Source: Cloacibacterium caeni (GTDB lineage Bacteria > Bacteroidota > Bacteroidia > Flavobacteriales > Weeksellaceae). Taken from it: DNA of 64,000 nucleotides. The translations under genes were made by a program, and so were the position numbers. Location: assembly GCF_907163125.1 (NCBI RefSeq), contig NZ_OU015319.1, positions 1,860,001-1,924,000 of the forward strand. Reading direction: 5' to 3'. The notes below the pieces were generated by a model. The model worked only from the letters and a program-made list of their open reading frames with translations. It searched no databases and had not been told where the DNA came from. This document shows, piece after piece, positions 34,778 to 40,626 of the stretch. The first letter of the stretch is position 1. Every line of letters starts with the position of its first letter.

Positions 34778-35809
34778 ATGAAAAGATGGTATCTCTACCC
34801 TTTTTCCTTGGTTTATCATTTTGTTACTGCCCTCAGAAACAGAATGTACGATTGGGGAATTTTTTCTTCTACGAAATTTAAAACTCCTATGATTGGCGTA
34901 GGAAATTTATCTGTTGGAGGCAGTGGAAAATCACCTATGGTAATGTATTTGGCAGATTTTCTTGCTAAAAATTTTAGAACAGGCGTTCTATCTCGTGGCT
35001 ACGGAAGAAAAACCAAAGGTTATGTTATTGTAAATTACGACAGTAATTTTAAAATGGTGGGTGATGAAGCCATGCAACTCTTTGAAAGATTTAAAAACAG
35101 ATTTGTCATCGGCGTTTGTGAAGACCGCGTTTTTGGGGCAAAAAAAATCATCGAAGACATGGATTTAGATGTACTTCTATTAGATGACAGCTACCAACAC
35201 CGTAGAATAAAACCAGGTTTCAATATTCTTTTGACGGATTATAATGATCCATATTTTAAAGATTTTGTTTTACCTGCAGGAAATCTTAGAGAATCAAGAC
35301 GTGGCGCAAAACGTGCTGACATCATTGTAGTAACCAAGTGTCCAGAAAATATTACCGAAGAAAAAAAACAATTCTATATTTCTAGAATTAAACCTAGATA
35401 TTACCAAAAAGTGTTCTTCTCTACCATCAATTATGATGAAGAAATTTTCTGTTTTGACCCAAAATTGAAACTTCCAGATAACAACATGAGTTATTATGAC
35501 ATTCTCCTCATAACAGGAATTGCCAACCCCAAAACCTTTGTGGAAGAAGTAAAAAGATACAGTTCCAATGTAAAACACTTACGATTCAAGGATCATCATA
35601 GTTTCACCACAGAAGATATTTCTCTCATCAAAAAAGAATACGAAAAACTTGGAGAATATAAATTGATTTTAACCACAGAAAAAGATTATGTTCGCCTAAA
35701 AGGTTTCGATTATTTAAGAGAAAAATTATATTATTGGCCGATTAATGTAGAAATAGACCGCGCAGAAGAATTTAATCAAATCATTCAAGATTATGTTAGA
35801 AAAAATTAA
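34778..35809 (+). CDS. lpxK: Tetraacyldisaccharide 4'-kinase
   Basis: Phosphorylates the 4' position of the lipid A disaccharide at the inner membrane. MKRWYLYPFSLVYHFVTALRN is the amphipathic membrane-binding N terminus. The P-loop is GNLSVGGSGKSP (42-53), followed by GVLSRGYGRKTKGY, DEAMQLFERF, VLLLDDSYQHRRI and the C-terminal LTTEKDYVRL. The ATG at 34778 gives the family N terminus. The stop overlaps punA by 17 bases. Together with lptB it shows LPS biogenesis functions in this window. Confidence 0.93.
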   Translation: MKRWYLYPFSLVYHFVTALRNRMYDWGIFSSTKFKTPMIGVGNLSVGGSGKSPMVMYLADFLAKNFRTGVLSRGYGRKTKGYVIVNYDSNFKMVGDEAMQLFERFKNRFVIGVCEDRVFGAKKIIEDMDLDVLLLDDSYQHRRIKPGFNILLTDYNDPYFKDFVLPAGNLRESRRGAKRADIIVVTKCPENITEEKKQFYISRIKPRYYQKVFFSTINYDEEIFCFDPKLKLPDNNMSYYDILLITGIANPKTFVEEVKRYSSNVKHLRFKDHHSFTTEDISLIKKEYEKLGEYKLILTTEKDYVRLKGFDYLREKLYYWPINVEIDRAEEFNQIIQDYVRKN

Positions 35810-36608
35810 ACAAACCGCCGAATTCATCCAAAATATTATTCAAGAAACTCCTGATTTCGCCATCGTTTTGGGTTCTGGTTTAGGTAAGTTACAAGAAGAA
35901 GTAGAGGCTATTCACACTTTAGAATATCACGAAATTCCTAATTTCCCGCAAACTACAGTAGTAGGACACGGTGGAAAATTGATTTACGGGATTTTAGAAG
36001 GCAAAAAAGTATTGATGATGAGTGGCAGATTTCACTATTACGAAGGTCATTCTATGGAAACAGTAACTTTTCCTTTCAGAGTTTTTAAATTGTTGGGAAT
36101 TCAGAATTTAATCGTTTCTAATGCTTCTGGAGGAGTAAATCCTAATTTCAGAGTGGCAGATATTATGATTATCGAAGACCATATCAATATGATGCCAGAA
36201 CATCCGCTTCGTGGTAAAAACATTGATGAATTGGGACCAAGATTCGTAGATATGAGCGAACCTTACAACCGAAAAATGATTGCTGTAGCAGAAGAAGTGG
36301 CAAAAAATTTAGAAATTAAAGTGCACAAAGGTTGTTATGTTGCACTTCAAGGTCCAACTTTCGAAACGCCTGCGGAATACGGAATGGTAAGAGCAATTGG
36401 CGGAGATGCAGTAGGAATGAGTACCGTTCCAGAAGTGATTGTAGCGAAACACATGGGAATGGATTGTTTCGGAATTTCTATCATTACGGATGTTGGCGGA
36501 CCAGAAATCGCTTTCACCGTTTCTCACGAAGAGGTTTTACAGGCTGCCAATAAAGCAATGCCAAATGTGATTAAAATTGTAAAAGGCTTGGTGAAAAATT
36601 ATCAATAA
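35793..36608 (+). CDS. punA: Purine-nucleoside phosphorylase (trimeric class)
   Basis: Phosphorolyses purine (deoxy)nucleosides to base plus (deoxy)ribose-1-phosphate. FAIVLGSGLGKL is the phosphate loop. VVGHGGKLIYG, MSGRFHYYEGHSMETVTFPFRV, SNASGGVNP, ALQGPTFETPAEYGM and MSTVPEVIVAKHMG, SIITDVGG are all intact. 271 residues is typical of the mammalian-like trimeric class. It is translationally coupled to lpxK by a 17-base overlap. Its product could flow to deoC. Confidence 0.94.
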   Translation: MLEKIKQTAEFIQNIIQETPDFAIVLGSGLGKLQEEVEAIHTLEYHEIPNFPQTTVVGHGGKLIYGILEGKKVLMMSGRFHYYEGHSMETVTFPFRVFKLLGIQNLIVSNASGGVNPNFRVADIMIIEDHINMMPEHPLRGKNIDELGPRFVDMSEPYNRKMIAVAEEVAKNLEIKVHKGCYVALQGPTFETPAEYGMVRAIGGDAVGMSTVPEVIVAKHMGMDCFGISIITDVGGPEIAFTVSHEEVLQAANKAMPNVIKIVKGLVKNYQ

Positions 36609-36743: not shown

Positions 36744-36884
36744 AAAGTAAAAAAGGGAAAAAATAAATACATTTAGATTAGTTGCCTTTAAAGTAGCCTA
36801 TTTCCTTCTCAAGAGGAAAGATAACTATACCTAATCTAAATATTTTTCATAGGAAGCACCTCGATTTTCGAGGTGTTTTTTTTG
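36744..36884 (+). ncRNA. ssrS: Candidate 6S-like regulatory RNA (6S-Flavo type)
   Basis: A non-coding unit of about 140 bases with its own -7 box and a strong terminator (CACCTCGA / TCGAGGTG then T8, 36857-36883). The core folds as one long rod. The closing stem ATTTAGATTAG (36771-36781) pairs with CTAATCTAAAT (36831-36841). Both sides of the middle are unpaired (36782-36800 and 36820-36830), and the rod is capped by hairpin TTTCCT / AGGAAA (36801-36819). A closing helix, central bubble and apical helix are the 6S RNA plan, in which the RNA mimics an open promoter and binds RNA polymerase. The class assignment is by structure only; a different small RNA is possible. Confidence 0.6.
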
Positions 36885-36910: not shown

Positions 36911-36931
36911 ATACATAAGAAAATTATGTAT
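36911..36931 (+). promoter_or_regulatory. Probable PadR operator
   Basis: Perfect inverted repeat ATACATAA-N5-TTATGTAT, containing the ACAT/ATGT half sites typical of PadR operators. It abuts the -7 box of the padR gene. A second overlapping repeat AAATTATG / CATAATTT spans 36921-36951. Binding would block RNA polymerase, giving autorepression. Confidence 0.6.
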
Positions 36932-36938
36932 ATATTTG
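36931..36938 (+). promoter_or_regulatory. -7 box TATATTTG of the padR operon
   Basis: Perfect TAnnTTTG 21 bases before the padR ATG, overlapped by the inverted repeats. Confidence 0.6.
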
Positions 36939-36959
36939 TAATGCATAATTTATTTAGGT

Positions 36960-37283
36960 ATGAAGAAAAACGCATTATATAAAGGAACTTTACAAAATAT
37001 TATTCTGAAACTTCTCGCTTCAGAAGTAAAAATGTATGGTTATCAGTTGACGCAACGTGCTAAAGAACTTACAAAAGGTGAACTGGAAATGACAGAAGGT
37101 GCGCTTTATCCTTTGTTACACAAATTAGAAAATGAAGGAGTTATTTACTCAGAAATGCAACAAGTAAATGGTAGAGATAGAAAATATTATTTGCTAACCG
37201 AAAAAGGCAAAAAACAACAAGCCTTACAAGAAGAAGAAATGAAATCTTACCTATTTAATCTGAATGCAATTTTTAATATTTAA
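36960..37283 (+). CDS. PadR family transcriptional regulator
   Basis: A 107-residue winged helix-turn-helix of the short PadR class. LYKGTLQNIILKLLASEVKMYGYQLTQRAKELTKGELEMTEGALYPLLHKLENEGVI is the DNA-binding domain and RKYYLLTEKGKKQQALQEE the wing and dimerisation helix. PadR proteins are mostly repressors released by a ligand or stress. It heads an operon with three tandem membrane-protein paralogs starting 11 bases after its stop; PadR linked to HAAS-domain membrane proteins is a known pairing. Confidence 0.93.
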   Translation: MKKNALYKGTLQNIILKLLASEVKMYGYQLTQRAKELTKGELEMTEGALYPLLHKLENEGVIYSEMQQVNGRDRKYYLLTEKGKKQQALQEEEMKSYLFNLNAIFNI

Positions 37284-37294
37284 AAACAACAACC

Positions 37295-38011
37295 ATGATT
37301 ATCGAACAACAAGAATCAGAAATCCGCAATTATCTGCTCTCAAAAAAACTGCCAATTGATATTCTCATCGAAGTAAATGACCATTTTGTTTCTCAAATTT
37401 CAGATTTGCAAAGAGAAGAAAATTTGAGTTTTGAAGAGGCTTTTTTAAAAGTAAAAACAAGATGGAATTTTGAATTTATTATGGTTAGAAAAAACTTTTT
37501 TTCTTCAAAAAAAATCCCAAAAATAATTTACGAAATCAATAAAACTCAAAATATTAATAACTTTAAAAAGAGTTTTTATATTGTTCTCTCTTTTATTGCT
37601 TTAGAATTCATTACTGCAAAACTTTTCCCAGAAAATATTTATCTTCTTATCTTGTCATTATTATTCATAGTAATAGCGATTTACCCTTTAAGAATGATAT
37701 CTCTATACATAAAACAGCAAAGATTGCTTTTTGAAAACAGAAGAAAAAATCCGATTATCAATAATTTTATACATCCTTTGCTTTCATTTGTTATTGGTTT
37801 TTCTTTAGATCAAATGATGCATTATCCAAAAAATACCAAACATCTTATTTATGATTTTATAAATTTTGGAGCTGATGAAAAAGTAAGCACAGCAATGTTT
37901 GTTTCTAATCTATTTTTTGGAATAATAATTCTTACATTTTATGTTTATGCCTTTCTTTCACTTGAAAAAAATGTAAAAAAACTTGAAAAATATAACCAAT
38001 TTGTTTTATAA
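37295..38011 (+). CDS. PadR-linked membrane protein, copy 1 of 3
   Basis: 238 residues. The soluble N-terminal module (about residues 5-50, SEIRNYLLSKKLPIDILIEV and ISDLQREENLSFEEAF) is helical and resembles a HAAS-type domain. After it come polar residues and about five transmembrane segments (about 95-115, 118-140, 160-180, 205-228). The N-terminal module is identical in amino acids to copies 2 and 3, while the membrane part is quite different. The function is unknown; regulation or signalling in the membrane under PadR control is an inference. Confidence 0.8.
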   Translation: MIIEQQESEIRNYLLSKKLPIDILIEVNDHFVSQISDLQREENLSFEEAFLKVKTRWNFEFIMVRKNFFSSKKIPKIIYEINKTQNINNFKKSFYIVLSFIALEFITAKLFPENIYLLILSLLFIVIAIYPLRMISLYIKQQRLLFENRRKNPIINNFIHPLLSFVIGFSLDQMMHYPKNTKHLIYDFINFGADEKVSTAMFVSNLFFGIIILTFYVYAFLSLEKNVKKLEKYNQFVL

Positions 38012-38012
38012 A

Positions 38013-38729
38013 ATGTTTACAGATTCTCAACTCTCAGAAATCCGTAATTATCTACTTTCTAAAAAATTGCCTATTGACATTTTAATAGAAGTAAATGATC
38101 ATTTTGTTTCTCAAATTTCAGATTTACAGAGAGAAGAGAATTTGAGTTTTGAGGAAGCTTTTGAAAGAACAAAATTAAGTTGGGAGAAAGAATTGAAACC
38201 TTATTGGAGAGGAAATTTAAATCTTGAGGATATTTCTGATTTTATGGTTAAAACTAAAAAGGAAATTGACAAGACTAATTTGTTTTTCGCATTAAAATAT
38301 TCAACTATTCCTACCCTTTTAATTTTTATCATTGCTTTCAATTTTAAAGCAGAAACTTTTGGATATTTAACCTTGTCAATAGTATTTGGATTGACGTTTT
38401 ATACTTTAATAAAATATTTTTCAAATTCCCAAGATTTCAAATTAGCTAAAAAATATAAAAAGTATGTTCTCACTTTACATCAACATTCTGTTGTTATTTT
38501 TGTAATTATTTTTTCTCCTTTAATGAATATTAATACAAGGTTAATAGACAATCCAGAGAAATACCAAAAAATCATCACCTTCCAAAGTGATAAACCAATT
38601 TTCATAGAAATCGCATTCATCTTTATGTCAATTTACTTAATTATTTTTGGTGTATTTTATTCATTATCAGCTCAAAAAAATTATTTAAAACAAATCGAAA
38701 AAGTAAAACCTTTCTTAAAATATTTATAA
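38013..38729 (+). CDS. PadR-linked membrane protein, copy 2 of 3
   Basis: 238 residues, starting with MFTDSQLSEIRNYLLSKK; the ATG at 38013 lies one base after the stop of copy 1, and the in-frame TTG at 37983 is rejected. It has the same N-terminal module as the other copies with many synonymous codon differences. The four-to-five transmembrane C-terminal part is similar to copy 3 (ending KQIEKVKPFLKYL in both) but diverged. Confidence 0.8.
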   Translation: MFTDSQLSEIRNYLLSKKLPIDILIEVNDHFVSQISDLQREENLSFEEAFERTKLSWEKELKPYWRGNLNLEDISDFMVKTKKEIDKTNLFFALKYSTIPTLLIFIIAFNFKAETFGYLTLSIVFGLTFYTLIKYFSNSQDFKLAKKYKKYVLTLHQHSVVIFVIIFSPLMNINTRLIDNPEKYQKIITFQSDKPIFIEIAFIFMSIYLIIFGVFYSLSAQKNYLKQIEKVKPFLKYL

Positions 38730-38730
38730 A

Positions 38731-39447
38731 ATGTTTACAGATTCTCAACTCACAGAAATCCGCAATTATCTGCTCTCAAAAAAACTGCCGATTGATATTC
38801 TCATCGAAGTAAATGACCATTTTGTTTCCCAGATTTCTGATTTGCAGAGAGAAGAAAATTTGAGTTTTGAGGAGGCTTTTGAGAAAACCAAAGAAAATTG
38901 GAAAGAAGAGTTAACACTTTCTTGGAACGGAAGCATAGACTTATTAGATACGAATCCATTTATTAGAGATGTAAGACAACAACTTGCTATAGAAAATCTT
39001 ATTTCAGCATCAAAATATACAATTTTAACAATCAGTTTAATTATTATATCTGCATTGATATTTAATAAAAATATTTTTAAATACTTTTGCCTTTTAACAT
39101 TTTTATCTTTTTCAATATTTCCTTTATTTGTTTATATTAAAAATTTTAAAAAATTTCAGCTAGCGAGAAAATATAGCAATTATATTTTAACACTTCATCA
39201 AGGTGGCTCCTTTTTATTCTTAGGAATACTTGGTTTATCATTACAATTTACGGCAAAATTTTTCGACTATTCTGATGAAGTTCAAAAATTAATTATTTCG
39301 GAGAAAACTAATTTTGAAACAAAACAAATAATACTATTAATAATTGGAACATTAACTCTTACATTAATTAGTTTTTTTAGTATTATCTCCCAAACTAAAT
39401 ATATCAAACAAATAGAAAAAGTAAAACCTTTCTTAAAATATTTATAA
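38731..39447 (+). CDS. PadR-linked membrane protein, copy 3 of 3
   Basis: 238 residues, beginning one base after the copy 2 stop. N terminus MFTDSQLTEIRNYLLSKK and the shared module are as in copies 1 and 2. The C terminus (IKQIEKVKPFLKYL) is nearly the same as in copy 2, but the intervening membrane region differs. It is the last gene of the operon, followed by a strong palindromic terminator. Confidence 0.8.
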   Translation: MFTDSQLTEIRNYLLSKKLPIDILIEVNDHFVSQISDLQREENLSFEEAFEKTKENWKEELTLSWNGSIDLLDTNPFIRDVRQQLAIENLISASKYTILTISLIIISALIFNKNIFKYFCLLTFLSFSIFPLFVYIKNFKKFQLARKYSNYILTLHQGGSFLFLGILGLSLQFTAKFFDYSDEVQKLIISEKTNFETKQIILLIIGTLTLTLISFFSIISQTKYIKQIEKVKPFLKYL

Positions 39448-39454
39448 TATTTTC

Positions 39455-39487
39455 AAACCTTAAAGGATTTAAAATCCTTTAAGGTTT
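39455..39487. terminator. Terminator of the PadR operon
   Basis: Near-perfect 33-base palindrome AAACCTTAAAGGATTT / AAATCCTTTAAGGTTT followed by CATTTTTATA. Confidence 0.8.
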
Positions 39488-39523: not shown

Positions 39524-39531
39524 TATCTTTG
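39524..39531 (+). promoter_or_regulatory. -7 box TATCTTTG of dinB
   Basis: Perfect TAnnTTTG ending three bases before the dinB ATG at 39535, the shortest such distance in the window. Confidence 0.55.
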
Positions 39532-39534
39532 TGT

Positions 39535-40626
39535 ATGCAAATTCCACAGAGAAAAATCATACATGTAGATATGGATGCGTTTTACGCTTCTGTGGAACAG
39601 CACGATAATCCTGAACTTAAAGGAAAACCCATTGCAGTAGGCGGTGAACATAGAGGTGTGGTAGCCGCAGCAAGTTACGAAGCCCGAAAATTTGGCGTAC
39701 GTTCTGCAATGTCGAGCAAAATTGCCAAAGAAAAATGTCCGCATCTGATTTTTGTAAAGCCAAGATTTCATCGTTACAAAGAAATTTCACAGAAAATCAG
39801 AGAAATTTTTCATGAATATACTGACTTGGTAGAACCTCTTTCTCTTGACGAAGCCTATTTAGATGTTACCGAAAACAAAAAAAACATAGAATCTGCCAAT
39901 GAAATAGCAAGAGAAATTCGTCAAAAAATTTTTGAAGAAACAGGGCTCACTGCTTCTGCAGGAATTTCGGTGAATAAATTTTTGGCCAAAGTAGCTTCGG
40001 ATATCAATAAACCCAACGGACAAAAAACCATTCATCCTACTCAGATTATAGATTTTTTAGAAGAACTTCCGATTGAAAAATTCTACGGAATCGGAAAAGT
40101 TACGGCCAATAAAATGTACAGTTTACAGATTTTCAAAGGCAAAGATTTGAAGGCAAAATCTATGGAAGAATTGGCAAGACTTTTCGGGAAATCTGGAATT
40201 TATTATTACAATGTGGTTCGTGGAATTCATCATGGAGAAGTAAAACCCCACCGAATTCAAAAAAGTGTAGGTGTAGAACATACTTTTTGGGATGACATCA
40301 ACGAAGATGAAGAACTTTACCAAAAACTAAAATCACTAAGCGAAGAACTAGAATCTAGACTTTCGAAAAGAGAAATTAAGGGCAAAACCTTGACTTTAAA
40401 AATAAAATACAAGGATTTTTCTCAATATACGCGTAGCAAAACACAAGAAGTATATTATGAAAACGCTGAAGATTTCTACGAAACCGCCCAGAAACTTTGG
40501 GAACTAAGACCTTATAATAAAGCGATTCGTTTGTTAGGTTTATCGCTTTCTAACCTCAACACAGAAGAGAAAAAACAAATTTCTGTACAACTCAAAATTC
40601 CTTTTGAAGAATTCGAAAAAGAATAA
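39535..40626 (+). CDS. dinB: DNA polymerase IV (Y family)
   Basis: Translesion polymerase. KIIHVDMDAFYASVEQHDNP holds the catalytic Asp and steric-gate region. VAAASYEARKFGVRSAM, YKEISQKIREIFHEYTDLVEPLSLDEAYLDVTE contains the SLDEAYLD catalytic pair, and ASAGISVNKFLAKVASDINKP and FYGIGKVTANKM (helix-hairpin-helix) follow. The little-finger domain is at the C terminus. 363 residues from the ATG at 39535; a TTG two codons upstream overlaps the promoter. The likely mRNA is leaderless. The window holds a second Y-family enzyme (57188-58459). Confidence 0.94.
   Translation: MQIPQRKIIHVDMDAFYASVEQHDNPELKGKPIAVGGEHRGVVAAASYEARKFGVRSAMSSKIAKEKCPHLIFVKPRFHRYKEISQKIREIFHEYTDLVEPLSLDEAYLDVTENKKNIESANEIAREIRQKIFEETGLTASAGISVNKFLAKVASDINKPNGQKTIHPTQIIDFLEELPIEKFYGIGKVTANKMYSLQIFKGKDLKAKSMEELARLFGKSGIYYYNVVRGIHHGEVKPHRIQKSVGVEHTFWDDINEDEELYQKLKSLSEELESRLSKREIKGKTLTLKIKYKDFSQYTRSKTQEVYYENAEDFYETAQKLWELRPYNKAIRLLGLSLSNLNTEEKKQISVQLKIPFEEFEKE

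Follow-up and report, generated by a model that had tools for sequence, protein, structure and literature searches.

The 64-kb window analysed here (the whole stretch of DNA under study, contig C1:1860001-1924000 of genome G000) comes from the 2.98-Mb genome of Cloacibacterium caeni, a sewage-type bacterium of the family Weeksellaceae. Within it lies an operon in which a gene for a PadR-family regulator is followed by three tandem genes for membrane proteins. In the 5′ to 3′ direction there are: a hairpin resembling an intrinsic terminator (36851-36881), a predicted operator, a promoter box, a possible second operator, padR (36960-37283), the genes for membrane proteins 1, 2 and 3 (37295-38011, 38013-38729 and 38731-39447), and a second terminator-like hairpin (39455-39487); all features of the operon to which a strand can be assigned are on the forward strand. 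The padR product has 107 amino acids and belongs to the PadR family by a profile match above the curated cut-off (PF03551, 75.1 bits against a cut-off of 27 bits). The three membrane-protein genes, defined as open reading frames (ORFs), each encode 238 amino acids; for the second, the start was taken as the ATG at 38013, which gives 238 amino acids matching the other copies, whereas the listed ORF begins with a TTG at 37983. Neighbouring copies are separated by a single base, and the coordinates thus confirm the first-pass annotation of this DNA, which had described a padR gene followed by three tandem 238-residue genes with 1-base gaps. A scan for terminator-like sites, which found the upstream hairpin, gave five in the region compared with 1.0 expected in shuffled sequence, and the hairpin that closes the operon has a 15-pair stem (−17.4 kcal/mol, z −6.3). 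By these predicted hairpins at both ends, padR and the membrane-protein genes are a closed, bounded unit.

The three membrane proteins are built alike. Residues 9-50, i.e., 42 consecutive amino acids, are identical in all three (codons 9-50 at 37319-37444, 38037-38162 and 38755-38880 in copies 1, 2 and 3, respectively) and are referred to here as the module, whereas residues 51-238, the body, are only 16% (copy 1 versus 2), 17% (1 versus 3) and 33% (2 versus 3) identical. This agrees with the earlier description of about 50 invariant N-terminal residues followed by a strongly divergent remainder. According to a simple hydropathy scan, which is crude and is not a topology model, the membrane segments begin after about 90 residues, number three in copy 1 and four in copies 2 and 3 (four to five had been claimed) and, in copies 2 and 3, have loops richer in lysine and arginine on the side of the N-terminus. 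The idea of an N-terminal non-membrane module carried on variable membrane domains is therefore supported. The last 16 codons of copy 2 (38679-38726) and of copy 3 (39397-39444) have 44 of 48 bases in common, so that these two genes share sequence at both ends. E26, D29 and H30 of the module are invariant and, just beyond the module, so is a tryptophan (W57) in 71 aligned rows. Downstream of W57, where the proteins otherwise diverge, a single residue is conserved in at least 90% of the 71: a glutamine, number 157 in copy 3, which directly precedes the third predicted membrane segment and is a candidate functional site.

The association between this padR and the membrane family is strict. In a survey of 320 Weeksellaceae genomes (threshold for a PadR match, E ≤ 1e-25), the membrane family was found in 151 genomes from 18 of 33 genera; this PadR was also found in 151, with one match each, and the two sets of genomes are identical. 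Within the genus Cloacibacterium, padR and the membrane family occur together in five of the seven genomes and are both absent from the other two; the PadR of the window is 100% identical in three sister species and 91% identical in a fourth. In all 62 loci that were read (the window and 61 others), padR immediately precedes one to four membrane ORFs: one in 10 loci, two in 23, three in 23 and four in six, where two of the four-ORF loci (L051 and L061) include one gene split in two frames, so that fragments are counted. A second search, largely covering the same species, found padR directly upstream in 54 of 54 loci. Across the order, 57 of 395 genomes matched the membrane-family profile, 18 of them outside the family Weeksellaceae, and in all 10 loci read from these 18 genomes a padR-family ORF was directly beside the membrane ORFs.

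The second constant element of the locus is a palindrome in the promoter. The sequence ATACATAA-GAAAA-TTATGTAT at 36911-36931 is a perfect palindrome, predicted to be an operator by whole-genome and family searches; its first base, 36911, is the coordinate at which the first-pass annotation had begun. Its end overlaps a promoter box (36931-36938) with the sequence TAnnTTTG, the −7 consensus of the Bacteroidota (PMC2483708). A possible second operator, an imperfect palindrome with two mismatches that ends inside the start codon of padR (36941-36961), is proposed from its position only, since sites with up to two mismatches are no commoner in this genome than those of the reversed control pattern. 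The first operator is the sole site in its own genome with fewer than two mismatches. When the best match to ATRCATAA-N5-TTATRYAT was sought in the 200 bp before padR in the 62 loci, there were no mismatches in 49, one in 12 and two in one, compared with four to seven mismatches in all 61 control stretches taken 700-900 bp upstream; the box TAnnTTTG follows the operator in 60 of the 62. Out of 316 genomes, 122 contain a single copy of the exact 21-bp palindrome ATRCATAAGAAAATTATRYAT, and the control columns for the reversed pattern were zero. A padR position was listed for 121 of these exact sites, and every one of them precedes padR, at distances of 15-176 bp (25-29 bp in 107 cases); the remaining one, in genome G007, is about 17 bp before padR according to the coordinates of locus L081. 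The simplest reading is that PadR would be a repressor sitting on its own promoter, with this operon as its only strong target.

Such an operon can be compared with known systems. In the HAAS-PadR dyad (PMC11237479), a standalone PadR gene is accompanied by a cytosolic helical domain situated N-terminal to domains with multiple membrane spans; the partners of HAAS include FtsX-like and FtsW-like domains and uncharacterised domains with two, four or six transmembrane segments, and the dyad has been proposed as an alternative to two-component systems. The operon described here is similar in that a standalone padR is coupled (the coupling being seen as adjacency, in the 62 of 62 and 54 of 54 loci) to an N-terminal module on a membrane-spanning body; it differs in that the module has no GxP kink motif and is undetected by the HAAS profile, and in that there are arrays of up to four genes with exchangeable bodies. 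The nearest tested precedent is in Listeria, where the operon of LltR (lmo0599), lmo0600 and lmo0601 is repressed by its own PadR and a DUF1700 membrane protein is the effector, the overproduction of which impairs growth in the cold (PMC6624303). The Listeria operon differs in having one membrane protein plus an exoprotein, with neither an array nor a constant module, and it belongs to a different phylum. A literature search by title or beginning of abstract, within one library, returned nothing on the operon itself.

The strict pairing with padR, the single promoter palindrome, the bounded operon, a probable distant link of the module to a prefix domain associated with PadR, the recombination in the module and the turnover of bodies can be read from the DNA, and a fairly probable reading of them is that the operon is a self-repressing membrane switch contained in one transcription unit, in which the membrane proteins are sensor and output, as in the HAAS-PadR dyad. 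A PadR dimer would bind the predicted operator on its own promoter and hold the expression of padR and of the membrane array low. In each membrane protein, a probably helical module at the N-terminus would lie in the cytosol, followed by a body with about four membrane segments. On the model of the dyad, a disturbance of the body would be passed on through the module, by a presumed contact, to PadR, which would release the DNA and allow the membrane to be flooded with these proteins. Since PadR lacks a second good operator elsewhere in the genome, sensor and effector would probably be combined in the membrane proteins; a reasonable guess for the trigger is membrane or envelope stress. The bodies would form a repertoire that turns over while the locus and its PadR are kept between species; recombination in the shared 5′ module, and partly in the shared 3′ end, would homogenise some neighbouring copies, and purifying selection would limit the amino acid changes in the module.

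The module itself is probably related, at a distance, to permease prefix domain 1 (NF038403). None of the three membrane proteins of the window matched a curated family above its cut-off, permease families included, and family scans of 71 relatives gave only inconsistent matches below the cut-offs; when the 71-row alignment was compared as a profile with solved structures, no convincing match emerged (best E 0.14). In family scans at E up to 0.5, NF038403 was matched over the module by four of 10 proteins that belong to the order but not to the Weeksellaceae (best E 1e-4, 22 bits), and by three of the 71 members of the main alignment, more weakly (best E 0.029); every match of these proteins was below the curated cut-off of 30 bits. 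A profile-profile comparison (hhalign), using 15 permease-prefix rows from 21 matches, aligned the joint module alignment to this domain over 54 columns (88%, E 3.2e-6, score 33.0), a score that none of 100 column shuffles reached (maximum 14.7), with an unrelated control PadR scoring 15.8; in it, the pattern E..DH..QI....e..S.eeAF of the module is aligned to E.esHL.d.I..L...G.s.eeAF. The permease prefix domain 1 matches used in this comparison mostly front ORFs of 870-960 codons, which are presumably FtsX-type permeases, whereas the module is fused not to a large permease but to a body of about 180 residues. The most frequent weak match among the 71 relatives was DUF7219 (PF23856), found in 12 (best E 7.9e-5) and located in copy 3 at residues 32-59.

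Several points weigh against the switch as set out above, or against the kinship assigned to its module. Restricted to the Weeksellaceae rows, the comparison with permease prefix domain 1 gave a score of 28.6 (77%), little above the maximum of 25.7 in 100 shuffles; restricted to the remaining families, it gave a weak 19.9 (11.7%). An assignment of the module to the HAAS domain was tried and rejected: profile-profile scores against seven PspC-type HAAS (PF22564) domains were within those of shuffles, a scan of the three membrane proteins of the window at E ≤ 1 yielded no PF22564 match, and of the 68 families matched by the 71 members, the 25 that were listed did not include PF22564. The GxP motif, described for the third helix of the HAAS groove (PMC11237479), is absent from the module; G-x-P within residues 41-78 occurs in one of 147 rows, after the module. 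Lacking this motif, and with PF22564 scores within the shuffles, the module is not classed as a HAAS domain, even though it may work like that of a HAAS-PadR dyad. The first-pass annotation had placed the operon beside PadR genes with HAAS-domain membrane proteins; the PadR operon and a kinship to that group of systems stand, but the profile search of the N-terminus found no HAAS match above noise. With regard to the operator, weaker ones may exist elsewhere in the genome, where sites with up to two mismatches are at chance level (five places, i.e., the first operator and four others that include the possible second operator, versus 14 for the reversed control pattern). With regard to the module, in one sister species with a 100% identical PadR the module of the first copy is only 43% identical to those of its other copies, so the module need not be invariant for a PadR to be shared. 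Finally, the bodies could be pure sensors with an output that is not seen in these data.

If the module is the constant part of these genes, the bodies are the part that turns over. Bodies were grouped into types by single-linkage clustering at 35% body identity, by which those of the window are of type M (copy 1), C (copy 2) and D (copy 3). The genes flanking the operon are 95.5-97.0% identical in DNA between the window and three sister species, and the arrays of bodies at the same place are M-C-D in the window, G-M-C in G001, Q-G-C in G002, T-C in G005 and, in the more distant G004, R-S. The M body stands first in the window and second in G001. Within the rest of copy 1 that follows its module (37445-38008), the stretch 37481-38008 is 99.6% identical in DNA to its G001 counterpart, with two mismatches in 528, while three flanking genes are less so (95.8-96.9%); this near-identity across species fits a recent exchange, though 528 bp is short. 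The closest relatives in other species are 100% identical for the body of copy 1 (in G001) and 96% for that of copy 2, and the best match of the copy 3 body in other loci of the set is 35%. Across the family, the bodies of 149 ORFs fall into 37 clusters, of which some single-member ones are fragments, and the order of bodies varies (e.g., F-A-B, B-A-E, A-B, B-A and M-A-B); a stable order is J-K-L, in three loci of Elizabethkingia, with J-K-x-L in a fourth locus of the same genus. Thus, as judged from these alignments, related species keep the locus and its PadR but differ in the bodies carried and in their order.

Body cluster A is a short class of about 204 residues with 27 members (e.g., L068:3267-3875 and L088:3239-3856), found first in 13 and in the middle of 12 multi-copy arrays, with its own wording of the module, often FQEAF or FPEAF. 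Copies that are split in two frames or cut short were seen at L051:2900-3594 and L061:2095-2807, and possibly in L132, L149 and L153; they fit a birth and death of cassettes, and sequencing errors are possible. With copy 3 or the alignment as the only queries, no match to copy 3 was found in plasmid or phage records that would point to a mobile element, and no confirmed relative was found in viral contigs.

This turnover gives some room to two related explanations, both of which are rather doubtful. According to the first, the genes would form a cassette system in which the 5′ module, joined in some genes by the 3′ end, serves both as the domain that reads PadR and as a homology arm for swapping bodies from copy to copy and from species to species, providing a changeable set of effectors that is probably driven by changing membrane-active antagonists. 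According to the second, the bodies would be defence or immunity effectors against membrane-active antagonists, diversified by cassette exchange, with PadR as the alarm; the antagonists envisaged, with no more confidence, are antimicrobial peptides, bacteriocins and phage lysis proteins. The combinatorial bodies (37 clusters in 149 ORFs, a few of the clusters being fragments), the body that is nearly identical between two species and the broken copies in some loci all argue for a defence role, and a regulon with one target would make the membrane proteins the output. Against this, matches to defence or immunity models are weak and inconsistent, and some arrays look stable, such as J-K-L in Elizabethkingia.

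The constancy of the module had been attributed to selection rather than to conversion. Between codons 9 and 50 there are synonymous differences in 15 codons for copy 1 versus 2, in six for copy 1 versus 3 and in 16 for copy 2 versus 3, without any amino acid change, which bears out the observation that copy 2 differs from the other two at many synonymous sites. The corresponding synonymous divergence by the Nei-Gojobori method (dS) is 1.23, 0.28 and 1.47, with non-synonymous divergence (dN) of approximately zero, compared with a dN of 0.63-1.14 between the bodies. Although the bodies of copies 1 and 3 are near saturation, their modules are 95.2% identical in DNA; given the dS of 0.28, these two copies have evidently been homogenised more recently in the module.

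Copy 2 carries a further trace of recombination, a tract of about 160 bp (38045-38204) in which its mismatches to the orthologues of sister species are clustered. In comparison with the G001 orthologue, 25 of the 51 mismatches in an alignment of 1416 bp are in the tract (expected 5.8, binomial P 2.7e-11), and there are none in the 135 bp before it or the 83 bp after it; to judge by G002, seven of the 25 arose in G001. Copy 2 departs from G001, G002 and G005 alike at 32 positions, and 18 of these fall within the tract (expected 7.2, P 3.5e-5). Because its borders were chosen with the data in view, these P values are too small. A donor of the module DNA of copy 2 was sought in the 320 genomes, and nothing above 88% was found apart from copy 2 itself. 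The tract marks recombination, by either of two routes that fit equally well: an import into this genome from a donor outside those 320, or an overwriting of the copy in the sister species, in which case the older version would be that of the window.

Constraint also acts. In Cloacibacterium the pooled ratio of the proportions of non-synonymous and synonymous differences (pN/pS) of the module is 0.071 (45 pairs), and amino acids that remain identical despite the recombination tract call for constraint as well. Thus, on these sequence comparisons, purifying constraint on the module is real in this genus and recombination acts alongside it, so that the selection part of the earlier claim holds and its exclusion of conversion does not (dS 0.28 and the tract). 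A module kept constant purely by selection for one common partner, be it PadR or the membrane proteins themselves, with no need for recombination, would account for a dN of approximately zero at a dS of 1.2-1.5 between copy 2 and the others and for the pN/pS of 0.071. It is improbable in view of the low dS between the modules of copies 1 and 3 beside near-saturated bodies, the clustering of the differences of copy 2 in one tract, the 43% module next to an identical PadR, and two features of the family as a whole: the closeness of module and body pN/pS in orthologues, and the low identity of most modules within a genome.

The first of these features comes from 66 family-wide pairs with orthologous bodies, in which pN/pS is 0.169 for the module and 0.223 for the body, and in which pN of the module is below that of the body in only 38. 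By this measure the constraint on the module would not be special relative to the body; the selection comparison of module with membrane part, proposed in the first-pass annotation, was thereby obtained, and its outcome is close to the equal divergence which that annotation had itself named as speaking against its reading. The second comes from 122 within-genome pairs counted by module alone, of which 96 have modules less than 60% identical and 21 have modules at least 80% identical; in only 18 of the 118 pairs kept for sufficient overlap is a module of at least 80% identity combined with bodies of less than 50%.

A general concerted evolution of the module was rejected by a quartet test, comprising 84 two-genome quartets with orthologous bodies, which come from 62 genome pairs and are not independent. 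Module sites grouped orthologues in 78 quartets and genes of the same genome in four, with two ties, compared with orthology in all 84 for body sites. The four exceptions all involve adjacent genes and come from two lineages (L052/L053 and L071/L073/L091), and the sole Cloacibacterium quartet, one of the two ties, has no informative module sites and is silent on the genus. Two other arrays with a constant module, L055 and L060, have no orthologous partner in the set. In L060, identity outside the module reaches 99% between two adjacent copies (L060:3047-4485), and the modules of all four genes are 95-100% identical, which makes this array a young expansion in one genome. From the quartets, the 96 of 122 pairs and the divergent module of the sister species, the constant module is a local feature, and a constant and variable layout is not supported as a general rule.

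A tandem duplication followed by faster divergence of the membrane segments, leaving the module as the remnant of a recent duplication, is very unlikely: copies 2 and 3 do have the module, the 3′ end and 33% of the body in common, and L060 does have near-identical neighbours, but the bodies of copies 1 and 2 are much closer to bodies of other species than to any in the same genome and so are not recent duplicates of each other (an argument that fails for copy 3, which has no close relative elsewhere), and the synonymous sites in the module of copy 2 are near saturation relative to copies 1 and 3.

Outside the operon, the upstream neighbour (35793-36608) is, by its sequence, probably a purine-nucleoside-phosphorylase-like gene, and the downstream ORF (39529-40626), on the same footing, a DinB-like gene. 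The genome has a second padR outside the window (G000:C1:1681850-1684363; L171:2851-5364), between a small PspC-like gene and that for a 578-amino-acid protein which matches PspC and LiaI-LiaF-TM and, weakly, HAAS and toastrack. This layout is the one described for HAAS-PadR-PspC systems, and it is also found in G003, which does not have the operon of the window.

The self-repressing switch proposed here would make this operon an unusually mixable form of a known kind of membrane-stress switch. Membrane proteins coupled to PadR are widespread, and the logic of their circuits is mostly guessed; with one repressor and one strong operator per genome, this family offers a clean test case, and the natural sets of bodies that differ between near-identical species are ready-made swap experiments. 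The operon also illustrates that a constant-plus-variable layout can stem partly from recombination inside a gene array, and not from selection for one partner alone. If the cassette explanation were true, each strain would carry a set of changeable membrane effectors under the control of one self-contained PadR switch.

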